From Bradyrhizobium sp. CCGB01 (GTDB taxonomy: Bacteria > Pseudomonadota > Alphaproteobacteria > Rhizobiales > Xanthobacteraceae): a stretch of 64,000 nt of DNA. Shown piece after piece: positions 23,404 through 64,000 of the stretch. Positions within the stretch are counted from its first letter, which is position 1. Each line of letters opens with the position of its first letter. The DNA is taken from NCBI RefSeq assembly GCF_024199795.1, contig NZ_JANADK010000001.1, positions 496,001 to 560,000 on the forward strand, given 5' to 3'. Below the pieces are notes generated by a model, which ran no database searches, was not told the DNA's origin, and was given only the letters and a program-made list of their open reading frames with translations. The position numbers and the translations under genes were made by a program.

Positions 23404-23421
23404 GACGCCCTCCAGCACGGA

Positions 23422-40456: not shown

Positions 40457-40468
40457 GGAGATGGGCCC

Positions 40469-43573: not shown

Positions 43574-44632
43574 TCAAGCGTACGAAGCGCTCCATTCTTC
43601 GAAATCGGCCTCGACCGCCGAAGCCGTCGATTTGGCCGTCTCGTAAAGCCAGCCTGGATCCCTCCGTTCGAGATCGTCAAGGATCGCCTGCCTAAGCCGC
43701 GACGTCGAAGCGTGAATCGATCCAATCTCAGAGCCCATTGCCCGCAATAGCTTCGTGTCCAGCTTTTGATCGAAGTCCGAGTCACGCTCGAGCTTTCGCG
43801 TGTCCGCGGCGATGCGGCGTACGATGAACCCGCGAGCCGTACGCAGGAAGGGATCAGGTGCGGAAGTGACCCCGTTCATGACGTCGTCCAGTTTGCTCGC
43901 GCGGTCGGGGTTTCCGGCCGCCCAGTCCCAGCCCGATGATATCAACGCCTTTGCCTCGCGAGCTATGCGACCGCCCCGCCATCGCGCGACCGCAACGAAA
44001 CGCGGTCTCCCGAGGCTGCCTCCTCCCTTGCTGGCGCGCGCGAACCGTTCGAGCTCGGACCCCGCGGGGAGGCTCGCGCGCAGCGCCGTTTTCGCCTCTG
44101 ACGACGGGCTTGCGTCGGGATATTCGTCGATCTCGTTCCAAAACGACTCGCGCTGCTTGTCCGTGACCGCGACATAGTCCCTCATCCACATTTCCTTTTG
44201 GTCGAGCAGGGTGGGACCGGGGTCGCGCAGTCCGTCGCCATAGCCTTCGAAGATTGCCTGCGCGGCTTCGCGATTTCCGACGCTGAAGTCGGCGAGACGT
44301 ACGCTGACCGTAAGCCTGAGGATGTCGGAGGCATACGGGATCTCGGCGGCATCGTCGTAGTCGTTGACGCCCCATACCAGCCTCGTTTCAGCATCCCGCC
44401 AGGTCCCGAAGTTCTCGACATGGACGTCGCCGACGGCGAGAGGAGCAGGCAGTCCCAAGATTTCGGGAGCGGTTGCCTTGACGGCGTGTGCCCACCGGAA
44501 GAACGTGGCCCTCAGGAACTTGAAGGCATTCTTGCTCATTCGGTCGTGCTTACGCTCGAGATCGTCCTCGACGACGTCGCAGACCGTTCTCATCCAATTC
44601 TCGTAGGCCGTGTTTTCCTCTACGAAAGACAT
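43574..44632 (-). CDS. DUF2252 family protein
   Basis: A 352-residue protein of the DUF2252 family, which has a protein-kinase/aminoglycoside-phosphotransferase-like fold and no assigned function. The key motif GDVHVENFG is at 68-76 and is followed by WGVNDYDDA (88-95), the likely catalytic and metal-binding aspartates. I chose ATG 44632, with GAGGG upstream; earlier ATGs lie 21 and 42 bp before it. It follows the trypsin-PLD gene on the same strand after 174 bp, so it could be the last gene of that leftward operon or have its own promoter. Confidence 0.75.
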   Translation of the reverse strand: MSFVEENTAYENWMRTVCDVVEDDLERKHDRMSKNAFKFLRATFFRWAHAVKATAPEILGLPAPLAVGDVHVENFGTWRDAETRLVWGVNDYDDAAEIPYASDILRLTVSVRLADFSVGNREAAQAIFEGYGDGLRDPGPTLLDQKEMWMRDYVAVTDKQRESFWNEIDEYPDASPSSEAKTALRASLPAGSELERFARASKGGGSLGRPRFVAVARWRGGRIAREAKALISSGWDWAAGNPDRASKLDDVMNGVTSAPDPFLRTARGFIVRRIAADTRKLERDSDFDQKLDTKLLRAMGSEIGSIHASTSRLRQAILDDLERRDPGWLYETAKSTASAVEADFEEWSASYA

Positions 44633-44806
44633 CCTTAGCCCTCTGTCCGACATCCGGAAGACGGTCAAAGCCAAGATCGCAGCGATTGGAAATTCGAACC
44701 CGACCGGAAGTGAGCGCCGCCTCGGTATAAGCGTACCCGGTCCTGACCAGAAGCCGACTGGTATCGGCGGAAAATTTCGTCAACCGCGCGGGCACCACGT
44801 ACACCT

Positions 44807-47800
44807 TTACCCTTCAAGAAACTCCTCCAACGTCGTGCGGCGAAAGCCTTGTGGGACCGCGCTTTCGGGATCGGCGATGCGCGGCGCTTCGGTGATCGCA
44901 GATTCCGGAATGACGGGCCGTGATGCACGATCCCAGTCGAGCTCGAATGCCTCGCGATAATACTGGGCGACGTCGCTGTCGTCGAACAGGAGACTCGCAT
45001 CGCGGTTTAGGGTAACCCCGTTGCCGCTCCAGTTATGGCTGCCGACCAGGCAGCGCTTGCCGTCGACGATCATGCCCTTGGTGTGCGTGCTTGGCAGGTG
45101 CCGAAGGCACTTGTTTAGGCTAAGGCCGCGCTTCTTGAGATCCTCAGCGCACGGGATCCAGGTACCGTGGTCCGAGCGCAGGATGACCCGCACGGTATCT
45201 ATCTCTTTCGACTTTCTGATGAGCGCCTTCACCAACTTCTCGAGGTTGCCTGCAGCACTTTCCTTAAAAGAGTTGATGTAGGGAATCTGGAACAACAGCT
45301 CGTCTTCCGCGGATTCGATGAGATCCAGCACGGCATCGGTATAGACCTTTCCCCTCCTGTCAGGTGTCAGCAGCGGCTTGACCTTGACGCGGCGGTTGAT
45401 CGTGATCGGATCGAAGATGCGCGATGCTGCACGCGCTTCCAGCTCAAATGCGATGGACTCCTCGATCGCAAGGGGAACGTCGACCAAGACATCCTCGATC
45501 ACCGCCTCCTCGGTCCCGCCGTTCTCCTTGGAGAACTCCAGATCGGCGAGGATGTGGCTGCGGTAGCGGGTGGCAAGCGACTTGTTCTTGATCACCACGT
45601 GCCATTCACGGTTTCCCTTCTTGGCCCTGATGGCCTGGAGATCGTTGAGGTCAGCGGGGTCGATATAAGGCTGGCTCGAATTCTTCCAGTTGCCGCTCGA
45701 CAGCCAGAATCGATCATCGTCATCCACCGTCACCTTGATGTGGTAGGAGTCGGCGATCAGACCGTTTGATCCCTCCGGCACGTAGATGCGATCAAAGTTG
45801 AAATTCCTTGCCCAATTTCGGAACACGGTCTTGCGATTGAAGTCGCCATCACCGACGCCTGCCCTGGTAACGCGCGTGGCGTTGTCGAGGGCCAGATCCA
45901 TCTTGATGCCGCTCTCAAGCCGCTCCTGAATGGCGTCAGCGATGTGCTCTGCATGGAATTCGTACATCGAGGACACCATGCGGCCCTTGGCCTTAGCGAT
46001 GTAGTCCGACAATACCGACCAGCTGCGTTCGGGACCGACACAGCAGGTCAGCTCCATCTCTTCATTGACCTGAGCAAAACTGAAATTGGCCCCAGTCCGG
46101 TCATCATCGTTGTAGGCAATCGAGGTGACCGCAGCCTCGCTGACGAGGTCCGCGCCGCCAAGCATGTCGACGATTCCGGCCATGCGAACGTCGACGGGGT
46201 GGCCGAGATACGCCGCGGGAACGCGCGCGCGCACCGCGGCGATCTTGTCGGGATGGGTGACAACATTGACGCAGGACGTTTCGGTGAACTCGCCGTTGCT
46301 GACGACAAGGCCGGAGCGGACGGTAAGGATGCCGTCGCCACGAAAGGCAGCCGCAAAGCGGCGCACCGCGTCCTCAATCGAGGCAGTCTCCGTTGCCGCT
46401 GCTGCCTGCGCGATTCCGCTCCCGGCGACCGGGGTGCCGATCGAGACGGTAATCGTGAGGGGAAGTGTGATCGAGACGGAGGCGGCCTGCCCCGTGGCTG
46501 CTGCCGCCGCCGGGGGTGGTGCCTGGGTTACGCCGGCAATTGCCTGACCGCTGCTGCGGTCGGTTACGATCGTTTCCGGGGTCTCCCACGGTCGCCGTTT
46601 CAGGTAGTTGCGGATGGTGGAGGCCGGCACGGCATAATTCTCCAGGACATAGGCGCCAGCGAAATGCAGCGCAACTGCTCTGCCGGTCGCTAGGTCGATG
46701 ACCGCCGAGCCTGAATTGCCGCCAAGCGTGGTGCAATCATGCGTCGCCCAGCCGCGCGAATTCGGCATCACGACTCCCGGCGCGGCGCGCTTGACGTCGT
46801 AGCGGCCGCCGAACACACGTTCCATCCAGGCCTGATCAGGGATGACATCTTCCCCCGCCCGTGCCGGATAGCCGATGACGGCCACCGATGTGCCCGCGGC
46901 AGCATCGGTGTCGGCAAGCAGGACGCGGTCCTGCTGTGCGCCATCGCTGCGGCGGCCGATCTTCAGGAACGCGATGTCGGCAACCTGTCGCGACTCGATG
47001 AAGATGATGCTTTCGACCGGACTGGCGATGCTCGAGTCGCTATCCATCTCGTGCTTCCAGTTCACGGTGGTGACGATCGGATCGCCGAACCGACCAGGCA
47101 GGAAGGTGAAGCGTCGGCCGTCGCGGCGGCCGATCAACTCGGCCACATGGCTATTGGTGACGACGATGTCAGGCGCGATCAGCCAACCGGTGCCGATGAA
47201 GCTCGTATTTCGTGGGAAATTGGCGACATCGATACGGCCTACGAGTGGAATGACCGGCTTGATTTTGTCGGCGGCAGCCAAGAGCCGCTGCACCATCATC
47301 ACCCCGTCCGGCGGTTCAATGAACGCCGGCGAGCCCACAACCGTGTCTGCCTTGATCGGCACCACCGGCCGACCAGGGCGCACCATCGTTTCGATCGTTA
47401 TCGGCACATCCAGCGAGGGCGCCGCTTCCGCGACGGCCGCCTCCAATCCCATCATTTGGCGCGCGGCCGGCTGCATGGCGGCAGCGCGGGCGTTGATCGA
47501 TTTGGCAAGATCCGGGTCGAAGCGCTCGAGGTTTTGCAGCCAGTTGCTGATCTTTTCCGGCGTCAAGCCGAATTGAATTGGATGAGCCATGTTCTTCCCC
47601 TTAACCGTCGTTGATCGTCCAGATGCAAAGGTGTCAGTCGTCGACGACACTCTTGCAAGCGGTCGCGGTCGGCGGCGATGTTCGCGCAACGAGGCATTAG
47701 TAACTGAGAACGGCACCCCGAGGCTTGCGGCCACATTTTCTTCATCCAGAAACTGCAACTTCAATGAAGAAGATTTGTCGCCCTCGCGCCGGCGAGAACC

Positions 47801-49111
47801 CAACATGGCAGGCGCTTCAGGATCGGCAGTTGCCGGCGGTCTGTAAGATATCTGACGGCGCAGCAACTCCTGCCAACTGTTTTCCCGCGGCTCCCATACA
47901 ATGTAGGGGCCCCAAGCCGCGGAACTTGCAATTGTATTCCATAACGTCGGATCCACCCAGATGCGTCCCTCGCGTCCCGCATGTTGGCAGAGATATTTCC
48001 AGCTAACCCAAAACATTGGCGGTTTGGTAATCGTTACAGTTTCCCGGGGCAGCAATCCTGCACGCGCCTTCAATGCAACGAGATCACTTGTCAGATCGGG
48101 TGACTCACCCACAAGCTTCATCAAATTAGCAACTACTTCGCGCGCGACGTCTTCCGGTTTATTCTTCGGGTCCACTTCCAGCTCGCGGCCCGTGGCCAAA
48201 TCTTCTTGAGGGTTATCTGAGCGTTCGGCGGCCTCGAGATAAAGGTGCAGCCCCGTAATTCCGGCGATTGGATTTTCGTATTTTCCCCAAAGCAGATTGT
48301 CGATCAGGTTCTGAGAGACGAAGATCGGCTGGGTCGTTTGCAGCGCATTGCGTGCCACCTCGATCGTTTCATAGTGGTCGAAATACACCACGGAACTCTT
48401 GGGGGGTGACATCTGGATCGATACGTCGATCCACTCGTGGCGCGCAGCGTCGCCTTCAGAGCTGGAGCGCGCGCTCAGCCAGTTGCGTCTACGCAGGAAT
48501 ATCCTGGTTTGCCATTTAGGTGCGATCGGAATGGTCTGCCTGACGGTTTGAGCTCCGTCGGATACTTCGAGCAGATAGCATCCGGGTATATAGGGGAGCC
48601 AGATAGCGCCCCACCGCTCCCGTCCTATCTGACTGACGGTGCTGTTGCTTTGCGCGATGTTGTAGGCCAGGTCATCGCGGCGCCATGGCATAACTCGCAG
48701 ACCGCTCAATGGATGAGCGCAGATCGCGCCTTCAGTGATGTGATGGCCCATGATCAGCAGGCCTGGTTCGTCGGCGCGGTCCGAAAACACGGCATCATGG
48801 CCAGGTTCGCTGGCCGTCCGAGTTGTGAAGGCCGCGGTCGCGAGCGCTTCGACCTTGCTACCGTCGGGGCCCAGCATTGGACCGATGGGCGCAATCGCCG
48901 GGAATTCGTTGACCGGGAGAGAGACACCCTGATCAGAGTCGAGGTCCAGCAGTTGCTCCACAGTGCCCCCGCCTCGCGCAACCTTGACCTTGTACAGCCC
49001 GCGGTTCAAGTCGACGCTTATGTCACCCACGCCGCGGTGAATGACTTGCAGTTTCGCATCCATGACGAGAATTTGTGCGTCGGCATGGCTTGATACGGTG
49101 AGTCTAGGCAA
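44807..49111 (-). CDS. Trypsin-like protease / two-HKD phospholipase D fusion, 1434 residues
   Basis: Order: an N-terminal beta domain (about 1-60), a long unrecognised region to about 500, a trypsin-fold domain with triad His655 (VVTNSHVAEL), Asp712 (QVADIAFLKI) and Ser800 (LGGNSGSAV), an Ala/Pro-rich linker (about 855-880), then a phospholipase-D-like domain with two HxK motifs: His1124/Lys1126 and the full HTKGMIVD (His1343, Lys1345, Asp1350). No signal peptide is evident. Start is TTG at 49111, with a perfect GGAGGTGA before it, overlapping the caspase stop. A second strong ribosome binding site (AAGGGGAAG) precedes an in-frame ATG at 47590 (residue 508), so a separate 927-residue protease-PLD protein may also be made. 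PLD-like domains may act as nucleases or lipases. Confidence 0.8.
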   Translation of the reverse strand: MPRLTVSSHADAQILVMDAKLQVIHRGVGDISVDLNRGLYKVKVARGGGTVEQLLDLDSDQGVSLPVNEFPAIAPIGPMLGPDGSKVEALATAAFTTRTASEPGHDAVFSDRADEPGLLIMGHHITEGAICAHPLSGLRVMPWRRDDLAYNIAQSNSTVSQIGRERWGAIWLPYIPGCYLLEVSDGAQTVRQTIPIAPKWQTRIFLRRRNWLSARSSSEGDAARHEWIDVSIQMSPPKSSVVYFDHYETIEVARNALQTTQPIFVSQNLIDNLLWGKYENPIAGITGLHLYLEAAERSDNPQEDLATGRELEVDPKNKPEDVAREVVANLMKLVGESPDLTSDLVALKARAGLLPRETVTITKPPMFWVSWKYLCQHAGREGRIWVDPTLWNTIASSAAWGPYIVWEPRENSWQELLRRQISYRPPATADPEAPAMLGSRRREGDKSSSLKLQFLDEENVAASLGVPFSVTNASLREHRRRPRPLARVSSTTDTFASGRSTTVKGKNMAHPIQFGLTPEKISNWLQNLERFDPDLAKSINARAAAMQPAARQMMGLEAAVAEAAPSLDVPITIETMVRPGRPVVPIKADTVVGSPAFIEPPDGVMMVQRLLAAADKIKPVIPLVGRIDVANFPRNTSFIGTGWLIAPDIVVTNSHVAELIGRRDGRRFTFLPGRFGDPIVTTVNWKHEMDSDSSIASPVESIIFIESRQVADIAFLKIGRRSDGAQQDRVLLADTDAAAGTSVAVIGYPARAGEDVIPDQAWMERVFGGRYDVKRAAPGVVMPNSRGWATHDCTTLGGNSGSAVIDLATGRAVALHFAGAYVLENYAVPASTIRNYLKRRPWETPETIVTDRSSGQAIAGVTQAPPPAAAAATGQAASVSITLPLTITVSIGTPVAGSGIAQAAAATETASIEDAVRRFAAAFRGDGILTVRSGLVVSNGEFTETSCVNVVTHPDKIAAVRARVPAAYLGHPVDVRMAGIVDMLGGADLVSEAAVTSIAYNDDDRTGANFSFAQVNEEMELTCCVGPERSWSVLSDYIAKAKGRMVSSMYEFHAEHIADAIQERLESGIKMDLALDNATRVTRAGVGDGDFNRKTVFRNWARNFNFDRIYVPEGSNGLIADSYHIKVTVDDDDRFWLSSGNWKNSSQPYIDPADLNDLQAIRAKKGNREWHVVIKNKSLATRYRSHILADLEFSKENGGTEEAVIEDVLVDVPLAIEESIAFELEARAASRIFDPITINRRVKVKPLLTPDRRGKVYTDAVLDLIESAEDELLFQIPYINSFKESAAGNLEKLVKALIRKSKEIDTVRVILRSDHGTWIPCAEDLKKRGLSLNKCLRHLPSTHTKGMIVDGKRCLVGSHNWSGNGVTLNRDASLLFDDSDVAQYYREAFELDWDRASRPVIPESAITEAPRIADPESAVPQGFRRTTLEEFLEG

Positions 49112-50132
49112 GAATCACCTCCGCAGCGATTCCTGAGGCAATTTCAAACAGCCGCGAGAAGCCTGGTGCCTGAGCCCGATAGATGCCAAGCCCGAGCGGC
49201 AGCGTCACGGCTCCATTCGCGATCGCTCCGCTTGCGATCCGCCGTCCGTCCGTATCCCAGATATCGAGAACGACGCCATCGGCGAGCGCAGCCTTGAAGA
49301 CATATTTGGGAAGCGGGACGCTGGCGAACTCAAGTTCTGCCCGCTCCGGAAACATGGGATCGACCGGATGCTCGTTGCCTGAGTCAGCGACCACGCTGCT
49401 ACCGACAACCCCATGCGGATTCTTGAAATACGAGATCAAACCCGAGGTGCGAACCACGCCGTCACCGTGCGCGGCCGCACCGCCAAGACCCCGCAAAAGC
49501 CTGTTGGTGAAAAGCCCCCCTATCTCGCCCTTGGGACCGATGGGGCCTTCGAAAGACTCGAGCGTCGGGCCAGCTGCGAATCCCATGACCACCTTGCCGC
49601 GGCCGTCCTGACGTGCGGCCGTCTTCTTCAGCAACGGCTTACCGCCATCGTAAAGAAACGTGCGCGTGGCGCAGCAATCCATGAAGAGCACGTACTCATC
49701 GAAGTAGAGCTGGTCGGCGAACCAATCGATCCAGGAGGTGGCCTGAATGTTCGGAATCCAGCTATCGCCAAGCGCATTGGCCGTAATGAGGGCCAAATTT
49801 CTGGGCTCGGGCATGAAACCGTGCCCGGCCATATAAACGTATAGTCTTCTGCCGAGCCGCTGAATTGGTTTGCCCTGCGATTCAGCAAGATAGCTTATAA
49901 AGCCCTGCGTCACGTCATCCGGCGTGGGGCGCATGTCGGAAACGGTCCACGAGTTGTTTCCGGTCCCGTCCGACGTAATCAGCGTTACGTGCGCCTTTGC
50001 AGACGTCACGAGCCAATCCGCCATCCGCTTGGCGTCCCAGACTGGTCCTAAAAGCGGCTTGAGGCCAAGCTTTGGATAACTCGCGATCCCCACTACCAGA
50101 GCGCGATCGGGATCGGTCGGGGTGGGGGGCAT
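49104..50132 (-). CDS. Caspase-like cysteine peptidase (C14 fold)
   Basis: A 342-residue protein. Residues 1 to about 245 form a caspase/metacaspase-like domain: ALVVGIASYPKLGLKPLLG at the first strand, the catalytic histidine in VYMAGHGFM (His104) and the catalytic cysteine in LFMDCCATR (Cys154). The C-terminal 70 residues form a small beta domain (VVLDIWDTDGRRIASG, LPLGLGIYRAQAPG) that resembles the first 60 residues of the downstream trypsin-PLD protein. Bacterial caspases often serve as activated effectors in defence or death systems. It is 9 bp downstream of the astacin-like gene and overlaps the trypsin-PLD start by 8 bp, so these are one transcript. Confidence 0.82.
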   Translation of the reverse strand: MPPTPTDPDRALVVGIASYPKLGLKPLLGPVWDAKRMADWLVTSAKAHVTLITSDGTGNNSWTVSDMRPTPDDVTQGFISYLAESQGKPIQRLGRRLYVYMAGHGFMPEPRNLALITANALGDSWIPNIQATSWIDWFADQLYFDEYVLFMDCCATRTFLYDGGKPLLKKTAARQDGRGKVVMGFAAGPTLESFEGPIGPKGEIGGLFTNRLLRGLGGAAAHGDGVVRTSGLISYFKNPHGVVGSSVVADSGNEHPVDPMFPERAELEFASVPLPKYVFKAALADGVVLDIWDTDGRRIASGAIANGAVTLPLGLGIYRAQAPGFSRLFEIASGIAAEVILA

Positions 50133-50141
50133 GTTACGGAT

Positions 50142-50870
50142 TCACGCGAAGGGCGAACGCGGACCATAGGCTTGAAGAATGAGTGCCTTGTCCTGTTCGG
50201 TCAAACGCGAGTTGAATGGCGTTGTAAATCCGTTGTTCGTCCATCGTGGCGGGATAGGGTACATCATGATGGAAAGCGGATCCACGTCGGTGGCAAATAT
50301 TTCGTCCGGTCGAAATTGAGCGAACATGTTGGCCTGGATGGTCGCATCATCCCAATTTTGAGTGCGTTTCAAATCGGAAACGACGTTGGGAACGTTCCAA
50401 TCGATTCTTTGGCTTGGATTGAGATGCTCATGGATCAGGCCAAGCGCGTGACCAAATTCGTGAAGCACCACGGATTGAGCTTTTTCCTCCTGAAGGTCGA
50501 CGGTCATCCAGCCAAGATTCATCGTTGCAGCGTTGCTATCGACGCCGCGCCCGTAGCTCCCCAAAACGGACCACGATCCCTTGTCCGGTCTGAAGGAAAT
50601 CCGGATGTTGGCTTGCTTAGGGTCGCGCGGTGTGTCGATCCAGAACTCGAACGTAAAATCGGCTTTACTTTCTGTCGGCCAGCGTTGCGCGATGGCTTCG
50701 ACCCGTCGATGTAACGCGATAGATCCTTCGAGGAAACCGACGGTCAGGCGAGCGCCCCGGCCCCAAAAAGCACGATTAAGCATTGCGGCGCGCGCATTGA
50801 ATCCGCGGCGAGCCGTTGGTGAAGCCTGCTCGACGTGATCGATGGTGGAGCAAAAATGCGTGTCGTCCAT
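50142..50870 (-). CDS. Astacin-like (M12A) zinc metallopeptidase
   Basis: A 242-residue peptidase with the full astacin motif VLHEFGHALGLIHEH: His137, Glu138, His141 and His147. The Met-turn is LSIMMYPIPP (Met202/203), with Tyr204 as the possible fifth ligand. The N-terminus has no signal peptide; most astacins are secreted, so a cytoplasmic one beside a caspase and a trypsin is unusual. Substrate unknown. It is the third gene of the leftward operon, 21 bp after the membrane cysteine-peptidase-like gene. Confidence 0.85.
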   Translation of the reverse strand: MDDTHFCSTIDHVEQASPTARRGFNARAAMLNRAFWGRGARLTVGFLEGSIALHRRVEAIAQRWPTESKADFTFEFWIDTPRDPKQANIRISFRPDKGSWSVLGSYGRGVDSNAATMNLGWMTVDLQEEKAQSVVLHEFGHALGLIHEHLNPSQRIDWNVPNVVSDLKRTQNWDDATIQANMFAQFRPDEIFATDVDPLSIMMYPIPPRWTNNGFTTPFNSRLTEQDKALILQAYGPRSPFA

Positions 50871-50891
50871 TGTCGGAACTCCGCTTGTGGC

Positions 50892-51830: not shown

Positions 51831-51831
51831 C

Positions 51832-52101
51832 TCATTCCCCCAGAAAAATACTTCGATTCGACATCCTGATTGAGTATCGCAACATCGTCAGCGCTGCGGC
51901 GCCTGTCATCAATCCGGCAATGCAGTGCAGCAGGCCCGGATAGCCGGTGTAATTCCAGGCGAGCAGAAGGGCCAACGTCCAGAAAAAGATCGCGAAAAAG
52001 AGCGCGCGCCAACGAAATCGCGAAGGGTCAGGCGGACAGTGTACGGACACAGTGAGCCACCCGACGACCAATCCCAGTGTGATCGCTCCCGCCAGCTCCA
52101 T
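51832..52101 (-). CDS. Small membrane protein, 89 residues
   Basis: Three hydrophobic segments (about residues 4-20, 32-49 and 57-76) suggest a small integral membrane protein. No family is recognised. It is the first gene of the leftward operon and abuts the next gene, and it reads away from the giant-protein gene across a 221-bp gap. The composition and tight spacing support it being real. Confidence 0.6.
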   Translation of the reverse strand: MELAGAITLGLVVGWLTVSVHCPPDPSRFRWRALFFAIFFWTLALLLAWNYTGYPGLLHCIAGLMTGAAALTMLRYSIRMSNRSIFLGE

Positions 52102-52246
52102 CGAATTCCAAATGGATGCGTGAAGACGAAGGTGTCGAACACCCGCCCTCGGTCCAGACCCAAGATTATCCGTCGAGACAGTCCAATTTTCTTGATTTCA
52201 ATGTAAGGTAGTCTAGGTCCGTTTGACTTCGGTTTGCAACGGAAAA

Positions 52247-52287
52247 TTGAACTGCGGCGATTTTTGTGCGTCAATGTCCGTCGGACA
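52247..52287 (+). promoter_or_regulatory. Putative promoter and palindrome before the giant gene
   Basis: TTGAAC at 52247-52252 could be a -35 box with a weak -10 (GTCAAT, 52270-52275) 17 bp later. A perfect palindrome TGTCCG-T-CGGACA follows at 52275-52287, where transcription would start. This is speculative; the gap is the only place for promoters of both divergent operons. Confidence 0.3.
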
Positions 52288-52322
52288 TATTGCGTCCGGC
52301 TCGCGTCTCGGGGGAGGAGGCG

Positions 52323-55300: not shown

Positions 55301-58300
55301 TCGCGCGCCGGTGAAAGGCCGTAATGACGAATTCGAAAGCCCCGCCGCTTATGTCAATGCGCCAGCGGATAAACCGATCCGCTTCCACCCCCAAGGTCTT
55401 AGCGGTGGCGCGCTCTGGCCGGTGGAGTCCGCCAATCTCTTCCGTGCACTGCTCGAACGGCCCGAGTCAAACGGTGGTTCTATCGAGGGGATCGCTTTGT
55501 CGCCGCTGGGCGGCGACGCGGTGCAGAAGGCGGAGTTCCTCAATGGCATCGTCTCCATAATCAGCGAAACCAAGAATGGGTTCGTGCAGCGTCAACAGGT
55601 CGAGGTCATAGGCCGTGTCGGAGCGCTTTGGCACCGCGCCAAACATGTCGTCATCTACGAACGAACGACAAACCCCACTGCGCAGTTTGCGCCACTCTAC
55701 GAGGACGATCCGAAGGGCAATCGATCGCGGCGCCCGATCCTTCGCAAGGTGCGCGAATACGTTGAGTTCATCGAATGGGATCGCGGCTATCCGGATTTTC
55801 CGGAGGCGGTATCGCGCAGCACCGGTTTCCTTGATCGCGTACGCTTCAACTCCCGAATCATCAACGTCGACAGTGCCTGGAGCCGCGATGTCGGCAAGTT
55901 CGGTTGGGAAATTCCGTTGTGGAATCGCGCGAGCGCGCGCCAGCGGCCGCAGGTCTATCCGATGCCTGACGTCGCGTTCGTCACTGCTGCGGAAGGTGAC
56001 GGCGAAAAGCCGGCAGTGGCCCAGGAAACCCGCGATCCCGAGAAGCTGTATTTCTTTGCCGATTTTTCCGCGCGCACCAGTGACACCAATGTGTGGCAGG
56101 TTCGGCAGGTGGTCGACTACAACAACGCGCCGTCGTCGACGAACCTGGCGGCAATCGTTGACGCGAAGTCGACGACCGATCCGCTCGATGCTTCCTCGCG
56201 CCGCCCCAGCGTCAGCCGAGTGCTGCCCGGCGTCAGCCGGTTCACTTGGCGACTGGCGCCTGCCGCCCGCAAGAGCGCGCTCAATGCTGGACGTTCAGCC
56301 AAGCCAGTCTACGTCGGGCTGGATTCCGTGACGTTCATGCGTAGCACGCAGAAGATCGCGGAGGTTCCGAACGACCTAAAGGACGTTCTCAAGGTCAAGT
56401 CCGCGATCGGCGATCCTGCCGCGTATGCTGCGATCATCGGCACTGGCTACTGGACGTCGGACGGTGGCGCAGGACCAGAGAACGTCGGCGCCTATACGGC
56501 CGCAATCAAGGACGTCATAGACGCAGCGAAAGCGATCAAGTCGCCCAAAGAGGCCGATCTGCCGCCAGATCTCGCGCCGGTGCGTACCGCCGTGCAGAAG
56601 CTGAGGGCTGAGATTACCGGCCAGTTTCAAAAGGAGATCGCCAAGAAGGTCGGCCCCGCATTTGAGGACGCCAAGAAGTTCAGCCAGTCCGTCAAGAACG
56701 TGAGCGCGCTGATCGGAAGCGGTCAGCAGCAATGCGAGAAGTTAAAGGAGGACGCCCTCGCGATGGTCCGCGGCAAGTCCGCGTTGATCGTCGAAAACAT
56801 TCGGGTCTGGGAAAATGACGCGGATACGGCGGTCGAGAACGCCTGGAGAAAATTGACGGGCCTGACCTCGGGTACTGAGCCAACCAAAACAAATCTCCTC
56901 CAGTTGCTTGCAGACGACGTCATCGATCTAGTTCGACCGGTTTTCACCGAGGCCAGTACGGACGTCGGGCGTGGCGAGGAAGCTGTGGAGACCGCACGCG
57001 CGATCATCGCTGACGTTGACGCGGAGTTCGAATCGATCGTCGCGCGAGCCCGCTCGCGGGTGCGAGAGTTTGCAGCTTCCTACGATCGCGGTAAGCCGTG
57101 GTCTCCCTCCCGACGCGCCTCATTTCAGGCTGGGCTGTATTCTGCCATCAGCAGCGTGGCTGACGATGTGCATGGCGCGATCGACGAGGCGCAACATCGT
57201 TTGGGAGTGGAACTCGGTAACGCCAGTCAGGCGATCGGCGGCCATCTCGCCAAGTTTCTGAGCGGCGTGGGAGGGGCCGAGGCCGCCGCGCTGGATCAAC
57301 TAAGTACAATCGAGAATTTGATCGACCATCTTCTGGCGCCTGTCGATTCCGGACTTGTGGAGCTTCTCAAGGGGAACGGCGTTCTCGATCAAGCTGGCCA
57401 GGATATTGCGAAAGCTCGCACGGAAGTTACGAACCAGATCGATGATCCTAAATTCCAGGAGTTGAAGGACGCGGCTCTAGGGGCGTTGCGGAGGGCCGAC
57501 GACGGGCTCGTTGCCGTCCGTTCCAAGGCTGATCAGGCCAAACAGTTGAGCGCCACGGCCAACAAGCTCAACAAGGACACCGCGGCATCGGCGGTTTCGG
57601 GCATCCGCGAGCTGGCGGTGAAACTGGACGAAATCGTCAAGAGCATCGAGCCGATCGTCACGGAACTGACCGAGGCTGCGAAAAAGCTGAGTGATGCTGG
57701 CTTTGAGCAAATCGATGGTCTCTTCCACGGCATCTTTGCAGGTATAGAGGTCCAAGTTGGCGTGTTCGGCCGCTGGCTGGCGCGGAAGATCGAGATCATC
57801 GGAGACAAAATCGACCTCCTGGTAAAGGAAGTCGTCGATTCGCTCGATCTGGCGTTGCGTACGATCCGCACCGAAGTGAAGGAAATTGGTGCGCGAGTAG
57901 GTCCCTTGGCCGATGACGCGGCCAAGGCACTGAAAGGCATTCAGGACGCGCTAGCGCCCAATTCCTTGATGGAAGCCGTTCTGCGTAAGAAGGTGATCGA
58001 GCCTGCGCTGGACGATCTTCTCAAGCCGCTTCCGGAGAGCTTGAAAGCCGATACGACGGCCTTGAAAGAACTAAGGCAGTCTGCGGCCGAACGTCTGACC
58101 CTGCTCAGCACGGAAGTAAAGGACATCGTCGCCGGTCTTAAAAGCGATGCCTTGGACGCCATAACCGAGATTTCTGCATTTTGTTCGGTGATTGTGGAAG
58201 ATGCGAATGCGGTGGCGAAGTATTTCGAGGATCTGAAAGGCGACGCCGAAACCTATGTAAAAAAGAAATTCGACGAACTCGTTGACCCGTTGGGGAAAGG

Positions 58301-59900
58301 GCTCGACGACTATGCCAAGGATTATAAAGGTCTCGAAAAACTGGTCTCTTCAGTCCAGGCCCTGGACTACACCGTCCGGGGCATCCAGAACGATCTAGGC
58401 CGCTCGGTGGAGAGCGCGCGGAGATATGGCGACCGAGTCATGGACGCTTTCTCGAAAGTCGATGTCTCCAATCCCCTTGCTGCACCGAGCAATATCCTCA
58501 AACTTTATTCGGCGGTTACCACGGCGCCCGAGATTGCGGCGCTCAAAGCCGATATCGATCGCATACGCGCCGGATTCGACGAAGCCAGCGACATCATCAA
58601 TACCACGCGCGCGACGGCTCTCTTCAACCATCTCGGCGACGAACTGAAGGCGCTTGGAATCGCGCTACCTTTCGACGCCATCGGCGACAAAATACGCGCC
58701 GTCACGGACATTTCCTCGTTCGACTTTCCAAGGGTGTTCTCAAACCTCGGCGGCTCCAGCTTCGGTAAGCTCGCCAAGGGCTTCAAGATGCCGGCCGGCG
58801 CCGGTGACTCGATTCGACTTACGCATGATTTCGACAAGACCCAGATGAAGGCATGGGTCCAGGTCGACATCAATCTGCCGGTTCCCGGACGGTGCAGCCT
58901 GTTCTCTCTCGAGGTGTTTCAGGCCGACCTCGTCGAGATGCGGGTGACGGGTCAGGTCAGGCTGGAGGCTTCCAAAGACAGCGAAACTGTGAGCCAAACC
59001 GGGTTCGGTCGCGTCGACGCAAATCTGGACATGGTCGTCGGCGGCCAGTCCATGGTGACGTTCCAGTCGCTTGCGTTTCATTTCACAAGGGAGAGCGGCC
59101 TCAAGGTCGAATTCGATCCATCGCGGATCAAGCTCAACCCGTCCTTCCAGTTCATCCAAGACTTGCTATCCAGTCTATTCCCCGATGAACTAGGTGGACT
59201 CAAGGTCATCAAGCGCGACGGGATTCCGGTAGGACTGGAGCACGAGTTCGCGCTGCCGGCGATAAGCCTGATGTTCGGCACGAGCGGCGTGTCGAACATT
59301 TCCATTTCCAACCGTTTCCAGCTTCTCGCCTATCCGGATTTCATCATCGCGGACCGCTTCAGCTTGTCGCGGCCGGAAATGCCATTCATTTTTTCGATAT
59401 TCGTCATTGGTGGGACTGGCTACATCCAGATCGAGGCCGAATACCAGCCCTTCCGTAACGATCTTATGGTCTCCGTCGAGGCGGCCGCCGGAGGATCGGC
59501 GACGCTCGGTCTTTCGTTTGGACCGTTCTCGGGATCCGTTTTCATCGCGCTCAGCATCAGCATTACCTACCGCAAGCATATCGGGCGGTCCGGTGGCGGA
59601 TTGACAATAGGGCTCGTGCTGGTCATCGCCGGCAGCGTAACCGTCTGCAGCATCGTCACGGTCGGCATCTATTTGTTGCTACGCATTAGCTACCGCGACA
59701 ACGGTCAGGCCGATGCCGACGGCACGCTGTCGGTCACGATCAGCATTTCGCGCTTCTTCAAAATCCACGCCAGGGCCGATGTTCACTACAAGCTCCGAGG
59801 CGGACGTTCCGAGACGACGGTCAGCACGAGCGTCAACGCAGAGGCGGAGGACAAAAGGCTGCAGCAAGCCGCCGACAAGCTCAAGAAGGCAAGGGGCTGA
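52323..59900 (+). CDS. Giant protein of unknown function, 2525 residues
   Basis: No family is recognised. Start ATG at 52323 is fixed by GGAGGAGG two bases upstream. Residues 1 to about 1330 are mixed, beta-rich sequence with many aromatic and acidic residues and no repeat that I can see. From about 1342 to 2135 the sequence becomes helical and Ala/Lys/Glu/Asp-rich with heptad-like runs, suggesting long coiled coils. From about 2140 to the end it is beta-rich again, with a glycine-rich patch (AAAGGSATLGLSFGPFSG) and one hydrophobic segment near 2427-2455 (LVLVIAGSVTVCSIV). No signal peptide, enzyme motif or Walker motif stands out. It diverges from the hydrolase operon and is followed 3 bp later by a second giant gene, so the two are co-translated. 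A structural or scaffold role is a guess. Confidence 0.8.
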   Translation: MVLAFRLYGFFQWPPLPDPPDHDVPPKLQAGMVEIHFDQLKTNPVNPTPEDLEYKAFLRWRPGTVQPDSGPAELPKKADNVYSIPEPSSRFNDADETLLWIFDPAKKGERKLAFRGAFLFEQYLDSAPKAPETVWPLVRECRYNTNEPTYFSTLIIGQSGNDNFRFDLQLPVPFPQTSRSAPGELNPATLPLSTVYLPRRKERTALTRINVLVMGASGRKRTRTFEQNEYFNVSAADRRLGLFGFSSGGNESSRGFAVCRGNFVNGHTPVLVKHFWPDPNLGNRVMETNFVLQILRRFGFRFHPEDFTGLALGSRDEKDLSIRFPRPLDEAEKSTEGNRRGSLVYRLAVATRSHGESDDLSWDADGFGFRLQEEIGGVLRIDSPKVFADVTLSWSIPTDKIWAKDRRSDWTLRHTLRFHWTETLGSGPLAARADLDESGDYHRGTLSEAAAAMTALQVALRQAEGGQPQSLLPNLSVDVDDQTVRFGLSLPAMELPDRTSTTPFDIEGLLLAGSDGPLRRPARLSLADARDLLPSETSSDLRLSATFPAFFLGEAQKRRLPLLLSTDREWVNSDIQFDPNQVRYFASFKMRWGQKPAKAKFAGRLSSLQFGFDTETVLHQSDGGTDESNRPDRLKTGGPGVRFAGRTGGARLVSKTPTAVSLSAKLGVEAIQPVGVDIPRSDRTGRPGPLLIPLGSEDEAAGFVLEFEEQLSATHDRLLTASIYDQNAETSGRDYVLLSQEPFSVLRFTEARIGARGDAANAAVAAYSSDDRIWTLKQVAEHYHYTLPPQVIGESADKPRRLHIHDLPEGTVAARRPVPPFDDDAPARDINHPEYDPKLWHDLHRRAVEFRLTPSTEIWVRPSDVERGYFMPAWESYELFRQRGEAGLGVRLAALRGEFLYGLAVGIDVAREGGVARQARVAEIQALTGSVLGEPRHDSAGALAKRWNALASAVSRRPERLEVWAFDPGSAVDFAPARFSDGVTFALRSTALHRAPVKGRNDEFESPAAYVNAPADKPIRFHPQGLSGGALWPVESANLFRALLERPESNGGSIEGIALSPLGGDAVQKAEFLNGIVSIISETKNGFVQRQQVEVIGRVGALWHRAKHVVIYERTTNPTAQFAPLYEDDPKGNRSRRPILRKVREYVEFIEWDRGYPDFPEAVSRSTGFLDRVRFNSRIINVDSAWSRDVGKFGWEIPLWNRASARQRPQVYPMPDVAFVTAAEGDGEKPAVAQETRDPEKLYFFADFSARTSDTNVWQVRQVVDYNNAPSSTNLAAIVDAKSTTDPLDASSRRPSVSRVLPGVSRFTWRLAPAARKSALNAGRSAKPVYVGLDSVTFMRSTQKIAEVPNDLKDVLKVKSAIGDPAAYAAIIGTGYWTSDGGAGPENVGAYTAAIKDVIDAAKAIKSPKEADLPPDLAPVRTAVQKLRAEITGQFQKEIAKKVGPAFEDAKKFSQSVKNVSALIGSGQQQCEKLKEDALAMVRGKSALIVENIRVWENDADTAVENAWRKLTGLTSGTEPTKTNLLQLLADDVIDLVRPVFTEASTDVGRGEEAVETARAIIADVDAEFESIVARARSRVREFAASYDRGKPWSPSRRASFQAGLYSAISSVADDVHGAIDEAQHRLGVELGNASQAIGGHLAKFLSGVGGAEAAALDQLSTIENLIDHLLAPVDSGLVELLKGNGVLDQAGQDIAKARTEVTNQIDDPKFQELKDAALGALRRADDGLVAVRSKADQAKQLSATANKLNKDTAASAVSGIRELAVKLDEIVKSIEPIVTELTEAAKKLSDAGFEQIDGLFHGIFAGIEVQVGVFGRWLARKIEIIGDKIDLLVKEVVDSLDLALRTIRTEVKEIGARVGPLADDAAKALKGIQDALAPNSLMEAVLRKKVIEPALDDLLKPLPESLKADTTALKELRQSAAERLTLLSTEVKDIVAGLKSDALDAITEISAFCSVIVEDANAVAKYFEDLKGDAETYVKKKFDELVDPLGKGLDDYAKDYKGLEKLVSSVQALDYTVRGIQNDLGRSVESARRYGDRVMDAFSKVDVSNPLAAPSNILKLYSAVTTAPEIAALKADIDRIRAGFDEASDIINTTRATALFNHLGDELKALGIALPFDAIGDKIRAVTDISSFDFPRVFSNLGGSSFGKLAKGFKMPAGAGDSIRLTHDFDKTQMKAWVQVDINLPVPGRCSLFSLEVFQADLVEMRVTGQVRLEASKDSETVSQTGFGRVDANLDMVVGGQSMVTFQSLAFHFTRESGLKVEFDPSRIKLNPSFQFIQDLLSSLFPDELGGLKVIKRDGIPVGLEHEFALPAISLMFGTSGVSNISISNRFQLLAYPDFIIADRFSLSRPEMPFIFSIFVIGGTGYIQIEAEYQPFRNDLMVSVEAAAGGSATLGLSFGPFSGSVFIALSISITYRKHIGRSGGGLTIGLVLVIAGSVTVCSIVTVGIYLLLRISYRDNGQADADGTLSVTISISRFFKIHARADVHYKLRGGRSETTVSTSVNAEAEDKRLQQAADKLKKARG

Positions 59901-59903
59901 GCG

Positions 59904-62900
59904 ATGACCGTTACCACGCGTATCCATTGTCTGACCGACGTCGAGCCGACCGCATTCCACGGAGCGGGCGGAGATAAGGCCTATGCCGTAAATCTCAACA
60001 TCGAGTGCGAGGCGGTGCTGCCGTTCGATGACACTGCAAGGAGTGAGGCTCGCGCGGCATTCGACCTGTTTCTTCAGAAAGCGGCTGCGGCCGAGTTCCA
60101 CTTATTCAAGGTCACGTTCGGCCAATTGCCGGCGCCACACACCGGCAAAACCGGAATCACGAAGCTGGATTGGCTCTACAAGATCGGTGAGGGAGGAGGG
60201 CGGGTTCTATCCGAATCCGCAATTGCAGATAACAAAATTTTGTTGGCCTGGCTCGAGGAGGGAGCAGCCGTCCGGCGCGCCGACGCATTGAAGAGAAGCA
60301 TCAAGACGACTGAGGCCGACAGGCAGGCCGAGGCGGCCGCAGCGGAAAGGAGCTATTGGCTCATTGCGTCCGGGGGCAATGGCAGCGACAAGATCGACCA
60401 AACCGAAATCGGCGCAACACATGAACTGCGCTCGGCACATGCGTGGAATGCTCCCGTCGCACACCGCTTCGGACTGACCAAGCTTCTGTTGCTGCCGTTT
60501 ACAGATGCGGACCTGAAAACCGACGGGATTTTCTACCTCGTTCTGCCGTCCTTCGACGGCAACCCTCCTGTACCCGACATATCGGCCACCGCTCCGTTCG
60601 ACGACGGCAGCCCGGCCGAGACGGTCGATATTCCCTACGATTTGAACGCAGGCTTCGTGCATCCGACCGTTTGCCGTGCCGCCCGACTGTTGCTCCCACA
60701 GGACGACTTCCCGGGCCTGGTTGGGGCGGACGGCTTTCTCAAGGTCGACCAGCAACCGGACCAAGTTCGCCGGCTGCTCAACTGGTTCGAACAGGGCGCC
60801 GCGTCGTTGATATCGCCTTTGCCCGGGCTCACGCGTGATCAGGCGAAGAATGGCGTCTCGGTGAGCCATCTGTTCGCACCTAGTTGGACCACGAGCGGAG
60901 TTGAGCCAAATCTGACGTTTGAGCTCAAAGCGTTCGGGACGGCATGGCGCCTAGTAGCATCGTTGTGCATTGCGCTCGATCCGATGATCATCGGCTTGAT
61001 GCGGCCGGCGCTGAAGCCTGCCTCGGCCGTTGAACTTGATCCGCGTCCAGAGGGACAAGTTCTATCGATGCTCGTGTCAGGCATCTTGCGTCAACTCGAT
61101 CAGGTTCGCCTCACCGATGCGGCCGTATTCCCCACCGGAAAATTGCCAGATGAGATGATCATCGCTGGCGCGGTGCGAGAGTTCCTTCAGAAAGGCGATC
61201 TGTTCGACACGGCCCCCGAGAAATTCGGCCAAGCGCTCAGATACATTCACGGCATCGGGCCGCCGGATGCAAGCTCGCCCGCTGAGGACGTCCTGCTGGA
61301 TGTCCTCTTCACGTGTTTTTTGGCGGGACCCGGGCAGCGTATCGCCCTCGATGCGACGCGGGTGAAAAAGATCGCGAGGTTCGATCCGAAAACGGGGAAC
61401 CCGGACGGCTTTGGCCCGGATCCTCTAGCGCTGGCGATTACCAGAAACAATGAGTTACATAAGGAGGCTGGGTTTGAAGCTGCCATCCTCCGCTTCTTTG
61501 AAGCGGCGGCAGTCAAACCTGCGACAGGACCACAACCGTCGATCTCTACGCTGGTTTCCGAACAACTCGCCAAATCCGTCGCCGACAAAGCGGGCCTTGA
61601 TGCAGGGAAGATAGTAACGCCGGTCGCAAAAGCCTGGCAGGAATTCCGTACCACGCTGGAAGGCGCCTTCAATGGCGCCGAAGCTGCACGACGCTCGGCA
61701 GGGGCCGACTTGTTGACGGCGCTCCTTGGTCCGCAAGGCGGACAGCCGTTAAAAGCGATGCAGGACACCGTTTCCTCACTCGCGACGTTGATTTTGGATG
61801 GCAGTAAATTTTCCGATTGTCTGTTCCGGAACGGCACCGGGTGTTTTGCGGACATCATCAAAAGCCTGCCGAGGCCGGAGGCTCCTGACGCCATCAAGGC
61901 CGACGATACGTTCCTGAAAATACTGGAGGAGGCCCATACCGACGCGATGGCACCGCTTTCGGATTTCGTTAGCGAGTCGGCTCAGTTGCCGATGCGCTTC
62001 GTCCCCGACAATGTTCCGCATCCACTGCCCGTACAGATCGGCGATAGCCTCGCGGCGGCGGACGTCGATCGCTTTGCACGCCATTTCAATGGCATTGCGG
62101 TAGCGATCCGTCGCGTGGACAACGACAATTCGCCCTTCGTGCATCTCAACCTTGCGAGCCTGACCTGGACCGGCGCCAAAGGCACGGACGGCAAGTTCAA
62201 GTTCGCGGAGGCTGCCGACGAAAATGGCGCCATTCATCCGATCTTGCCAGCGTTGGTCGATGGACGAAGTGCGCTGTTCTTGAACTATGAGGGCTTCCCC
62301 TTTGCCAGCACGGCGTTTTCCACGACGGTGCCATATACCGATGACGAAGAAACCCCGGCGCGACGTCCGCTCAATATACATGAAGTCGCCGATTACACAG
62401 GCGACTGGTTGAAAAAGATGCCGCCACGACTAGCCTACGGCCGTACGTTCGAGACCTTCGCTTTCGTTACGACCAATTCCGGGTCGCTGCCGCCGGCGCT
62501 ATTTAGCTCGGCCGATACTCCGTGGCGCTCGGCCAAGGACATCGTGGCGAAGAAAATCGACGAGGCGGTGAAATCAAAAGCCCCGTGTCATCGGCGGACT
62601 GCGGTTGGTCGCATTGCGATCACGGAACTAGCCGGCAACAAGGGAGGTGCGGGCAGTAAACGTATTGGCGGAAGCTTGCCCGGAGTTTATCCGCTGGCCA
62701 CCGATTATCCGCGGTTGATACTTTCCACTTGCGATCCAGCCACACCCGATGCGGTCGACCTCATGCGTCTCGCCGACGGCAGCGGCGGCTTCATTTTTCC
62801 GACCGAAATCGGCGAAGCCAAACGAAGCAAGCTTGGGCTGGCCGACCCAGACTGGCTTGGCGGCAAGGGCAGGTTGGACATAGGCATCTTCACGTTGCCG

Positions 62901-64000
62901 GCGCGCCTCGACACCGTCGCCGATGTTTCGATTTCGAACATTCCCGGCGGCGGCTCAGGCTTCAACGGGAGCGGCGAACTATTCCTGTCCGTCGAACGGA
63001 AGGCAAACGCCGTCGACACGTATACGGTTGCTCTTTACGTCGATGCGACGCCGCTTGGTCATACCGAACTGGTCACTCGCATAGACCGAGGATGGTTCCG
63101 CCTGACGCTGAGGGCGGAGGACGTGGGCAAGCCGGTCGTGTTCTCCTTCGCCGAGCCTGAGGGGCAAGGGGGCGCGGGCCACGGAATCCGGGATACTCCA
63201 TTGCTTTTGCTCGCACCCGCGCGCGAAGGATGGCAGTCCGGTCTGGCGGAACCAATCCACGCAAAAATCGATGCTCCACGCACGGGCTACCTCGATTTCG
63301 AACGCTGGTTTGCCAATGCCGACTTGCGGACAGACGTCTTCATGGGCGTCGACAAAGCAACGATGTTTTTCGACGCGTTGCTTACCGCCTATGTAATGCG
63401 GCACCGCGATAAAGATCTCGCCGAAAGTCTTTCCAATCTGCCCGATCCGTCGGTCGTCGCACTGCGCGTGACCCTCGCCGTTGCAGACCGGCTTGGGGAA
63501 CAGCCGGTAATTATGCTGCAGAAGGATATCGAACTGAAAGATCTGCTGGCGTTGGTCGTAAAAGCGATTCCCTCGGACGGTACCGAAGACGGTGTACCGG
63601 TGCGGAAGAAAGCCTGGAGCGTCAAGGATCTGAAATCTCAAATATTTGAACGGGTCCGTGACAAGTTTACCTTCGACCTTGCGGTGTCACCAGGTGCGTT
63701 GAGCCTGACGGTGAGCGTGGACCGCGCGCACGACGCCGGATCCGGCGGCAGGATCATCGTTCAAGTGCCGGCGGGTGTCGTTGCTCAGTTCTCGATCGCG
63801 CCAATGGTGGAAGCGAGGCATTTCTCCGAGAAAGTCCACGCGGGTATCACCTTCCCGAGCGTGTGTCACCCTGGCTTGCTACAGCATGTTGCAGCAAACT
63901 ATGGCTCTCTGCTGGTGTTCCCGGCGACCGCGCTTCGCATTGAAACGATGGCCGATGTTCTCGTCAGTCAAGACAGGGCGACCGAGCTTGCGCGTCGAAT
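59904..64000 (+). CDS. Second giant protein, at least 1365 residues (partial at window edge)
   Basis: An open frame begins with ATG at 59904 (AAGGGG at 59891-59896), 3 bp after the stop of the 2525-residue gene, and runs without a stop codon to the end of the window. The protein begins MTVTTRIHCLTDVEPTAFHG and continues with mixed alpha/beta sequence; I recognise no family, signal peptide or catalytic motif in the part visible. It has the same soluble, acidic and aromatic-rich character as the N-terminal half of the preceding giant. The tight junction indicates one operon. The C-terminus lies beyond the window. Confidence 0.8.
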   Translation, partial: MTVTTRIHCLTDVEPTAFHGAGGDKAYAVNLNIECEAVLPFDDTARSEARAAFDLFLQKAAAAEFHLFKVTFGQLPAPHTGKTGITKLDWLYKIGEGGGRVLSESAIADNKILLAWLEEGAAVRRADALKRSIKTTEADRQAEAAAAERSYWLIASGGNGSDKIDQTEIGATHELRSAHAWNAPVAHRFGLTKLLLLPFTDADLKTDGIFYLVLPSFDGNPPVPDISATAPFDDGSPAETVDIPYDLNAGFVHPTVCRAARLLLPQDDFPGLVGADGFLKVDQQPDQVRRLLNWFEQGAASLISPLPGLTRDQAKNGVSVSHLFAPSWTTSGVEPNLTFELKAFGTAWRLVASLCIALDPMIIGLMRPALKPASAVELDPRPEGQVLSMLVSGILRQLDQVRLTDAAVFPTGKLPDEMIIAGAVREFLQKGDLFDTAPEKFGQALRYIHGIGPPDASSPAEDVLLDVLFTCFLAGPGQRIALDATRVKKIARFDPKTGNPDGFGPDPLALAITRNNELHKEAGFEAAILRFFEAAAVKPATGPQPSISTLVSEQLAKSVADKAGLDAGKIVTPVAKAWQEFRTTLEGAFNGAEAARRSAGADLLTALLGPQGGQPLKAMQDTVSSLATLILDGSKFSDCLFRNGTGCFADIIKSLPRPEAPDAIKADDTFLKILEEAHTDAMAPLSDFVSESAQLPMRFVPDNVPHPLPVQIGDSLAAADVDRFARHFNGIAVAIRRVDNDNSPFVHLNLASLTWTGAKGTDGKFKFAEAADENGAIHPILPALVDGRSALFLNYEGFPFASTAFSTTVPYTDDEETPARRPLNIHEVADYTGDWLKKMPPRLAYGRTFETFAFVTTNSGSLPPALFSSADTPWRSAKDIVAKKIDEAVKSKAPCHRRTAVGRIAITELAGNKGGAGSKRIGGSLPGVYPLATDYPRLILSTCDPATPDAVDLMRLADGSGGFIFPTEIGEAKRSKLGLADPDWLGGKGRLDIGIFTLPARLDTVADVSISNIPGGGSGFNGSGELFLSVERKANAVDTYTVALYVDATPLGHTELVTRIDRGWFRLTLRAEDVGKPVVFSFAEPEGQGGAGHGIRDTPLLLLAPAREGWQSGLAEPIHAKIDAPRTGYLDFERWFANADLRTDVFMGVDKATMFFDALLTAYVMRHRDKDLAESLSNLPDPSVVALRVTLAVADRLGEQPVIMLQKDIELKDLLALVVKAIPSDGTEDGVPVRKKAWSVKDLKSQIFERVRDKFTFDLAVSPGALSLTVSVDRAHDAGSGGRIIVQVPAGVVAQFSIAPMVEARHFSEKVHAGITFPSVCHPGLLQHVAANYGSLLVFPATALRIETMADVLVSQDRATELARR

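Follow-up and report, generated by a model that had tools for sequence, protein, structure and literature searches.

A 64,000-nucleotide stretch of the Bradyrhizobium sp. CCGB01 genome (here called the window; bases 496001-560000 of the single contig that makes up this 9.3 Mb genome) carries six minus-strand genes, a hydrolase operon, that diverge from two tandem plus-strand genes for giant proteins. The genes that adjoin such giants come time and again from a pool in which hydrolases of peptidoglycan, lipid, and protein abound and mostly lack export signals. The explanation that we prefer, with a confidence that falls a little short of even, is that the giants form the sensor-scaffold core of an undescribed modular conflict system of the cell-suicide type, with exchangeable lytic effectors; horizontal spread of the giant pair is part of this explanation. 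A literature search, which left preprints and most subscription journals outside its range, found no published work on these giants.

Giant 1 (52323-59900, plus strand) has 2525 residues from its ATG at 52323, or 2544 from a GTG at 52266, from which point the open reading frame (ORF) is open. Giant 2 (59904-63998, plus strand) runs past the end of the window, which holds the first 1365 of its 2239 residues, the full size being taken from the DNA beyond. The first-pass annotation had described the two as 3 bp apart and without a known family, and both statements hold. The gap between the stop of giant 1 and the start of giant 2 is 3 bp, and neither protein has a match above cut-off in Pfam (toxin families included) or NCBIfam. 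Protein searches, which the same annotation had suggested as a check, returned relatives for both: 230 sequences for giant 1 (self included, E ≤ 0.001, scoring only the 7993 candidates with most shared words) and 82 for giant 2 (self included). The two giants show no detectable relation to each other. Among the 60 PDB profile matches shown for giant 1, all lie in its helical middle, the best being apolipoprotein A-IV, tape measure proteins, designed bundles, and ZorA; they are read as helix bias. A relation to apolipoproteins was rejected on the same reading, the Pfam family Apolipoprotein A1/A4/E scoring 25.4 bits versus a cut-off of 90. For giant 2, the PDB profile search gave ribosomal S3 alone, at chance level (E 0.2-0.29). 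A phage origin was likewise rejected, with 0 matches in 50,697 phage records.

The relatives of giant 1, more than 200 in number, span alpha-, beta-, and gammaproteobacteria together with one planctomycete metagenome-assembled genome; the sources named for the two giants include Bradyrhizobium, Rhizobium, Mesorhizobium, Methylosinus, Novosphingobium, Burkholderia, Cupriavidus, Variovorax, and Pseudomonas. Among the 120 matches listed, 112 cover at least 93% of giant 1. A scan of GTDB genomes yielded 28 giant loci, and profiles place giant 2 directly 3′ of giant 1 in 27 of them; the exception, L038, reaches a contig end. Broken giant genes occur in some loci (L019, L028, and L036). Occurrence across genomes is sporadic: a whole giant 1 is present in 4 of 60 genomes (own genome counted), and its last 966 residues find a match in 15 of 265 genomes of the genus (own counted), 8 at E < 1e-40. 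Six plasmid records match giant 1; three are on predicted conjugative plasmids, two of those from near-identical records. More distant giant pairs fall into groups Ib (G185, G243, G231/G272, L037, and L039) and III (G123/G069, G277, and G132). The first giants of both groups carry the C-terminal domain of giant 1, and the second giants match the giant 2 profile in Ib and not in III.

The evidence that carries our reading comes from the neighbours of the giants. Genes in the flanks were called with a plain codon-usage model for which the giants served as training set, and each was checked, blind to annotation, for a homologue that lies 2.5 kb or less from giants at a different site. This analysis covered 37 loci merged to 33 sites, without L034, L036, L038, and the plasmid loci; at L013, an adjoining 1918-residue gene was wrongly merged into the giant span and is uncounted. 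Recurrent genes make up 29 of 78 within 1 kb of the giants, 10 of 79 at 1-2.5 kb, 12 of 103 at 2.5-5 kb, 7 of 154 at 5-10 kb, and 9 of 81 beyond. The contrast between 29/78 and 7/154 gives p = 3.7e-10, a value that serves as a guide only, the sites being phylogenetically non-independent. When distances were shuffled within loci, 29 was reached in none of 2000 trials, and removal of the window and G154 leaves 28 of 74 (<1 kb) versus 5 of 146 (5-10 kb). At least one recurrent gene lies within 1 kb of the giants at 21 of the 33 sites, and the recurrent neighbours that could be named are mostly lytic.

Names come from a Pfam scan of 65 flank proteins, with L109-L111 judged from record annotation or ORF listings. 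A hedgehog signalling domain sits on a membrane module beside the giants at L029, L031, and in G134 (E 7e-53 to 8e-56); these bacterial hedgehog amino-terminal signalling domains next to giants are found at L029:6980-7951, L031:8691-9668, and L058:14182-15126. Tae4 occurs in G134, in G154 (as a SLOG fusion), and, by homology, in G185. Other families are Amidase_6 (L024 and L030; L017 by homology), C92 papain-like (L025, below cut-off; L039 by homology), patatin (L027, L030, and G185; G009 by homology), Subtilase S8 (above cut-off at L022, L024, G243, L037, and L108; below it in G231), PAP2 (L022 and G231), polysaccharide deacetylase (L018; L027 by homology), and M10 (G123; G069 by eye). Two recurrent families are uncharacterised, one of ~200 residues (L014, L016, and L023/L035; DUF3238 at 0.0013 in L035) and one of 441-443 residues (L020 and L023/L035). 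By hand tally, a lytic or proteolytic gene lies within ~5 kb at 23 of 38 sites (the 33 sites plus L108-L112), the weak cases among the 23 being L021 (M15_4, 0.0087), L112 (CHAP, 0.029), and L019 (a caspase with a signal peptide, maybe unrelated). A crude hydropathy scan of 27 lytic neighbours from other loci, in which the called starts of two G009 proteins are doubtful, flagged two as exported (the L019 caspase and the G123 M10); the G069 M10 appears exported by eye, and 24 of the 27 have no export signal. The first-pass annotation had imagined several effectors held around a giant core. As lytic enzymes, mostly unsignalled, recur beside giants, this idea now has comparative support, with the amendment that the set in the window is not a fixed one.

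If recurrence marks partnership, the recurrent neighbours would be effectors licensed by the giants. The giants would then act as a cytosolic or membrane-docked sensor and scaffold. A trigger, for which an invader is our probable guess, would cause them to release or assemble their partner lytic enzymes, and these would attack the envelope and proteins of their own cell, thereby halting the spread of the invader. In the window, one effector would be the papain-like protein anchored in the membrane, and a group of proteases (metallopeptidase, caspase, and trypsin-PLD) would supply the others, perhaps as a cascade in which PLD and the papain-like domain come last; the sequence of events and the substrates are conjecture.

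All ORFs named in the first-pass annotation were found where it had placed them, and a sixth gene, of 89 residues, was located. This gene (51832-52101, minus strand, as are all that follow here) encodes a small membrane protein with three hydrophobic segments by hydropathy; a 72-residue membrane protein occupies a like position in G154. Next to it (50892-51830) lies the gene for a membrane-anchored protein of 312 residues. Its C-terminus had been called amidase-like; a papain-like (CHAP/NlpC-like) Cys/His arrangement is discernible by eye, and Pfam offers DUF2304 alone (E 0.02), the plasmid homologue at L112 reaching just 0.029 for CHAP. An astacin/matrixin-like zinc metallopeptidase of 242 residues follows (50142-50870), with the motif HEFGHALGLIHEH recognised by eye and an Astacin match (2.7e-4, 21.1 bits) slightly below the gathering score of 22.5. 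The caspase-like peptidase (49104-50132, 342 residues) has zero Pfam matches; it is assigned from a sub-threshold NCBIfam match (caspase_w_EACC1, E 1e-10, 41.5 bits versus a cut-off of 140), from the PADLOC caspase model (3.7e-13, no cut-off applied), and from His and Cys motifs seen by eye. The second locus in this genome that resembles a caspase gene is L120 (G000:C1:2561304-2561986), which the window caspase matches in two pieces.

The ORF at 44807-49111, 1434 residues long, had been read as a trypsin-PLD fusion. Both domains are found by Pfam (Trypsin_2, 1.1e-13; PLDc_2, 2.4e-23, in two stretches), the trypsin domain at ~46667-47194 and the C-terminal PLD at ~44933-45328. However, residues 508-1434 are 93% identical to a stand-alone 927-residue protein in G202, and the first ~500 residues (N500; ~47591-49111) match a separate 540-residue protein in G154. 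By this comparison, the protein is best described as two units, N500 and a trypsin-PLD unit that takes up the rest of the ORF, which corrects the single trypsin-PLD reading. The last gene (43574-44674, 366 residues; PF10009, E 4.9e-23) encodes a DUF2252 protein and, to judge from order and strand, would belong to the same operon. The catalytic motifs of the trypsin, PLD, caspase, metallopeptidase, and papain-like domain appear complete by eye. A crude hydropathy scan, run on the four soluble hydrolases and both giants, picked out no signal peptide, as the first-pass annotation had noted for the hydrolases.

The membrane proteins beside the giants have a constant N-terminal module and swapped C-terminal domains, as in polymorphic toxins. 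The module of the window protein is shared with L018 (66% over 101 residues), where the transmembrane module alone corresponds and the C-terminus matches other proteins instead of that of the window. The second membrane module carries the hedgehog domain at L029, L031, and in G134, and another domain in G009 (by eye). Crude positive-inside counts make the C-terminus of the window module cytoplasmic in the window (where only one segment is over threshold), in G154, and in G350, but not in L018. The membrane protein of a Rhizobium brockwellii plasmid also has a cytoplasmic C-terminus, and the second module is inconsistent.

The same modularity bears on the main rival, toxin delivery, in which the giants would build a big particle, a carrier or a pore, that takes up the adjacent lytic enzymes as cargo and carries them into competing cells. 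A constant membrane module with differing C-termini (L018 versus the window), Tae4 beside the giants in G134, G185, and G154, and the 24 of 27 lytic neighbours without an export signal would all fit such a particle, and the C-terminal model of giant 1 may, at low confidence, resemble outer-membrane barrels. Delivery would also fit a secreted, cysteine-rich protein of ~160 residues (L112:3064-3549 and L021:9309-9797, minus strand, 36% identity between the two) that adjoins a CHAP-like gene at L112 and an M15-like, wall-peptidase-like gene at L021. However, of 13 contexts scanned, just one (L021) showed a secreted, immunity-like small protein by a lytic gene, to which L112 can be added; cytosolic immunity proteins were not sought. 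Moreover, the 65 scanned flank proteins include no secretion or tail component, and the giants match no Pfam toxin family. We therefore consider delivery unlikely, if the foremost alternative to the conflict system.

Another possibility is a lysis or scavenging cassette whose enzymes would free the giants or digest other cells and detritus. Lysozyme, amidase, M23, trypsin, and metalloprotease genes are described around bacterial hedgehog genes, and feeding or scavenging is suggested (PMC8052667); in G350, genes that by eye resemble those of lysozymes and amidases lie near the membrane module. Feeding enzymes would be expected to be exported, whereas most of those here have no signal peptide, and the scan of flank proteins returned no holin or spanin family. 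This makes scavenging very improbable.

How the hydrolases of the window are distributed bears on whether they belong with the giants at all. In G154, a pair of giants (ORFs of 3664 and 2439 residues) comes first, then SLOG-Tae4, small membrane protein, membrane protein, metallopeptidase, caspase, and N500, and after these the cassette that in the window stands after giant 2 (trypsin, second trypsin, AAA, membrane protein, and WD40) with an added nuclease. Part of the operon (membrane protein, metallopeptidase, caspase, and N500) thus stands again beside two giants, of another family, which argues against chance. The G154 membrane protein lacks, by eye, the Cys and His of the papain-like domain of the window, and this speaks against its acting there solely as an enzyme. 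Homologues of the G154 giants are the two giants of the R. brockwellii plasmid (3953 and 2545 residues; 31% over 3613 and 30% over 714 aligned columns), and on this plasmid, predicted to be conjugative, the gene opposite the giants is again one for a membrane protein that shares the C-terminal domain. These family II giants have no detectable relation to family I (best probability 1.3%, from two-sequence profiles of low power). In G005, the neighbours of trypsin-PLD are a GDSL-lipase-like gene (below cut-off), the gene of a DUF6973 protein bound to the membrane, and that of a further giant, 3323 residues long, whose counterpart ORF in G070 has 1910; such other-giant loci, with DUF6973, GDSL-lipase-like, and trypsin-PLD genes, are at L101:8396-19999 and L116, and at L102 with L117. 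A bolder and rather doubtful reading is that giant cores without detectable sequence relation (family I, family II in G154 and R. brockwellii, and the 3323-residue giant in G005) convergently took one architecture, in which a very large cytosolic sensor-scaffold would license an inner-membrane-tethered wall or lipid hydrolase from a shared pool. With some of the catalytic domains placed on the cytoplasmic face by the crude topology counts, the targets might then be lipid-linked wall precursors, reached from within the cell.

Several observations weigh against a conflict system centred on the giants. No sensor or NTPase domain was recognised in them, and PADLOC found no complete defence system among nine left-side proteins. 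The effector set of the window recurs in part only. The co-occurrence of the giants with caspase, astacin-like, and PLD genes, which the first-pass annotation had proposed to look for, was not borne out at the 28 giant loci: BLAST of their flanks gave no homologue of the window caspase, metallopeptidase, trypsin-PLD, or DUF2252, and for the membrane protein it gave one at a single locus (L018). A uniform system with the exact gene set of the window was rejected on this basis. In G161, metallopeptidase, caspase, and trypsin-PLD occur with no recognised giant in 60 kb. Among the 120 membrane-protein relatives listed, 1 of 42 contigs over 20 kb fits the size of a listed giant contig (Mesorhizobium, 344384). 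No lytic neighbour was recognised at 15 of 38 sites (G132, G277, L012/L028/L036, L013, L014, L015, L016, L020, L023/L035, L026, L032, L033, L109, L110, and L111); three of these lytic-free loci are from Rhizobium, with the giants between genes common to all three. Some of the domain calls are weak.

Such observations invite the explanation that an island gathers mobile cassettes, the operon and giants being separate systems that are neighbours by chance. That the two sides would be found apart is what the first-pass annotation had regarded as fatal to its proposal, and this is partly so: G161 has a hydrolase cassette and no giant that was recognised, as does G350 (membrane module and metallopeptidase, with the wall hydrolase-like genes mentioned above), and giants occur without the window's hydrolases at 28 loci, with G154 pairing them again. 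Long matches to the trypsin-PLD part turn up in nine further genomes of the genus; a strong match to a giant is present in just one of these, G231, where it lies on a different contig. Further protease cassettes on both sides of the locus and the low-GC stretch described below would also suit coincidence. Against it, the recurrence of neighbours drops steeply with distance from the giants, even without the window and G154, and a membrane protein or module stands beside giants in the window, at L018, in G154, and on the R. brockwellii plasmid. Chance neighbourhood is in our view improbable. The effector cassettes are mobile, with the giants as one recurrent partner.

The setting of the locus is consistent with acquisition. 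The GC content is 64.5-68.3% over 1-24 kb of the window, 62.8% at 24-28 kb, and 54-61% at 28-64 kb; past the window it is 58-61% up to contig position 579 kb and 63-67% thereafter. A serine recombinase gene (26879-28666) lies close to the left border of the low-GC stretch, and these two features together suggest that the giant/hydrolase locus is probably acquired DNA. No simple insertion boundary emerged: comparison with 10 relatives in which two flanking genes were placed gave no clean empty site. The spacing of these genes, ~70 kb here, is 86 kb in one, 380-397 kb in three, and megabases in two of the six relatives with strong matches to both. A search of the window and the 31 kb that follow it revealed no tRNA gene.

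Protease cassettes flank the operon and giants on either side. To the left, adjoining the operon, are genes for a trypsin, a 1073-residue FGE-sulfatase-domain protein, an AAA_5 ATPase, and a 663-residue protein of no assigned family (36336-43374, plus strand), a four-gene cassette similar to protease/MoxR conflict systems in the literature. Immediately to the right of giant 2 (L005:8557-17044) is the five-gene cassette of two trypsins, AAA, an 881-residue membrane protein, and WD40 that recurs in G154 beside the family II pair. Within the low-GC stretch lies a gene for an 844-residue AAA and Peptidase_M41 (FtsH-like) protein (30374-32908, minus strand). Elsewhere in the window, a coaBC-type flavoprotein ORF (21952-23418, minus strand) has an N-terminal match to a FitA-like ribbon-helix-helix antitoxin family.

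Should the proposed system be real, hedgehog-type peptidases, caspases, and Tae4-type amidases would serve as plug-in effectors on two giants in an unnamed bacterial system. Giant scaffolds in bacterial immunity or warfare would become testable, and some bacterial hedgehog-type peptidases would gain a place in a working system. The Tae4 family is named for amidase effectors of the type VI secretion system (T6SS), and Tc/ABC toxins are very large proteins encoded by tandem genes. The locus resembles T6SS amidase effectors and polymorphic toxins in Tae4, in a constant membrane module with differing C-termini, and in the absence of signal peptides. No Hcp, VgrG, or sheath protein was found among the 65 flank proteins scanned, and secreted immunity-like partners are scarce in the contexts covered, as noted above. 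The giants are very large and tandem, as in Tc/ABC toxins, but have no Tc-type Pfam match at E up to 0.1.

Closer in logic are the MoxR-vWA, VMAP, and EAD-linked conflict systems, in which trypsins, caspases, and other peptidases are described as exchangeable effectors (Kaur et al. 2020, PMC7159879). The two flanking cassettes of the window (trypsin, FGE-type, and AAA; trypsin, AAA, and WD40) are like such systems. In contrast, the giants and the divergent operon have no vWA or AAA match in Pfam, which may miss remote domains; the flanking cassettes each contain an AAA protein, and neither has a vWA match. Giant proteins, hedgehog, patatin, and DUF2252 are absent from the MoxR-vWA passages seen in that paper. 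The nuclease-protease pairs and canu loci couple a trypsin or caspase to a nuclease, of the metallo-beta-lactamase type (PMC12799240). A trypsin coupled to a nuclease-like effector is likewise found here, as a fusion to PLD, but the present locus combines PLD with giants, and its operon proteins match no metallo-beta-lactamase family. Bacterial hedgehog genes among proteases and wall hydrolases in Bradyrhizobium and Mesorhizobium (PMC8052667) constitute a partial precedent; section 14 of that paper makes no mention of giants, whereas here the hedgehog module is directly beside giants at three loci. Since the core is without a family match in the libraries used and none of the known systems considered has all its defining parts here, we take the giant-pair system, with its putative function, to be undescribed, though built on the familiar logic of a core with swappable effectors.

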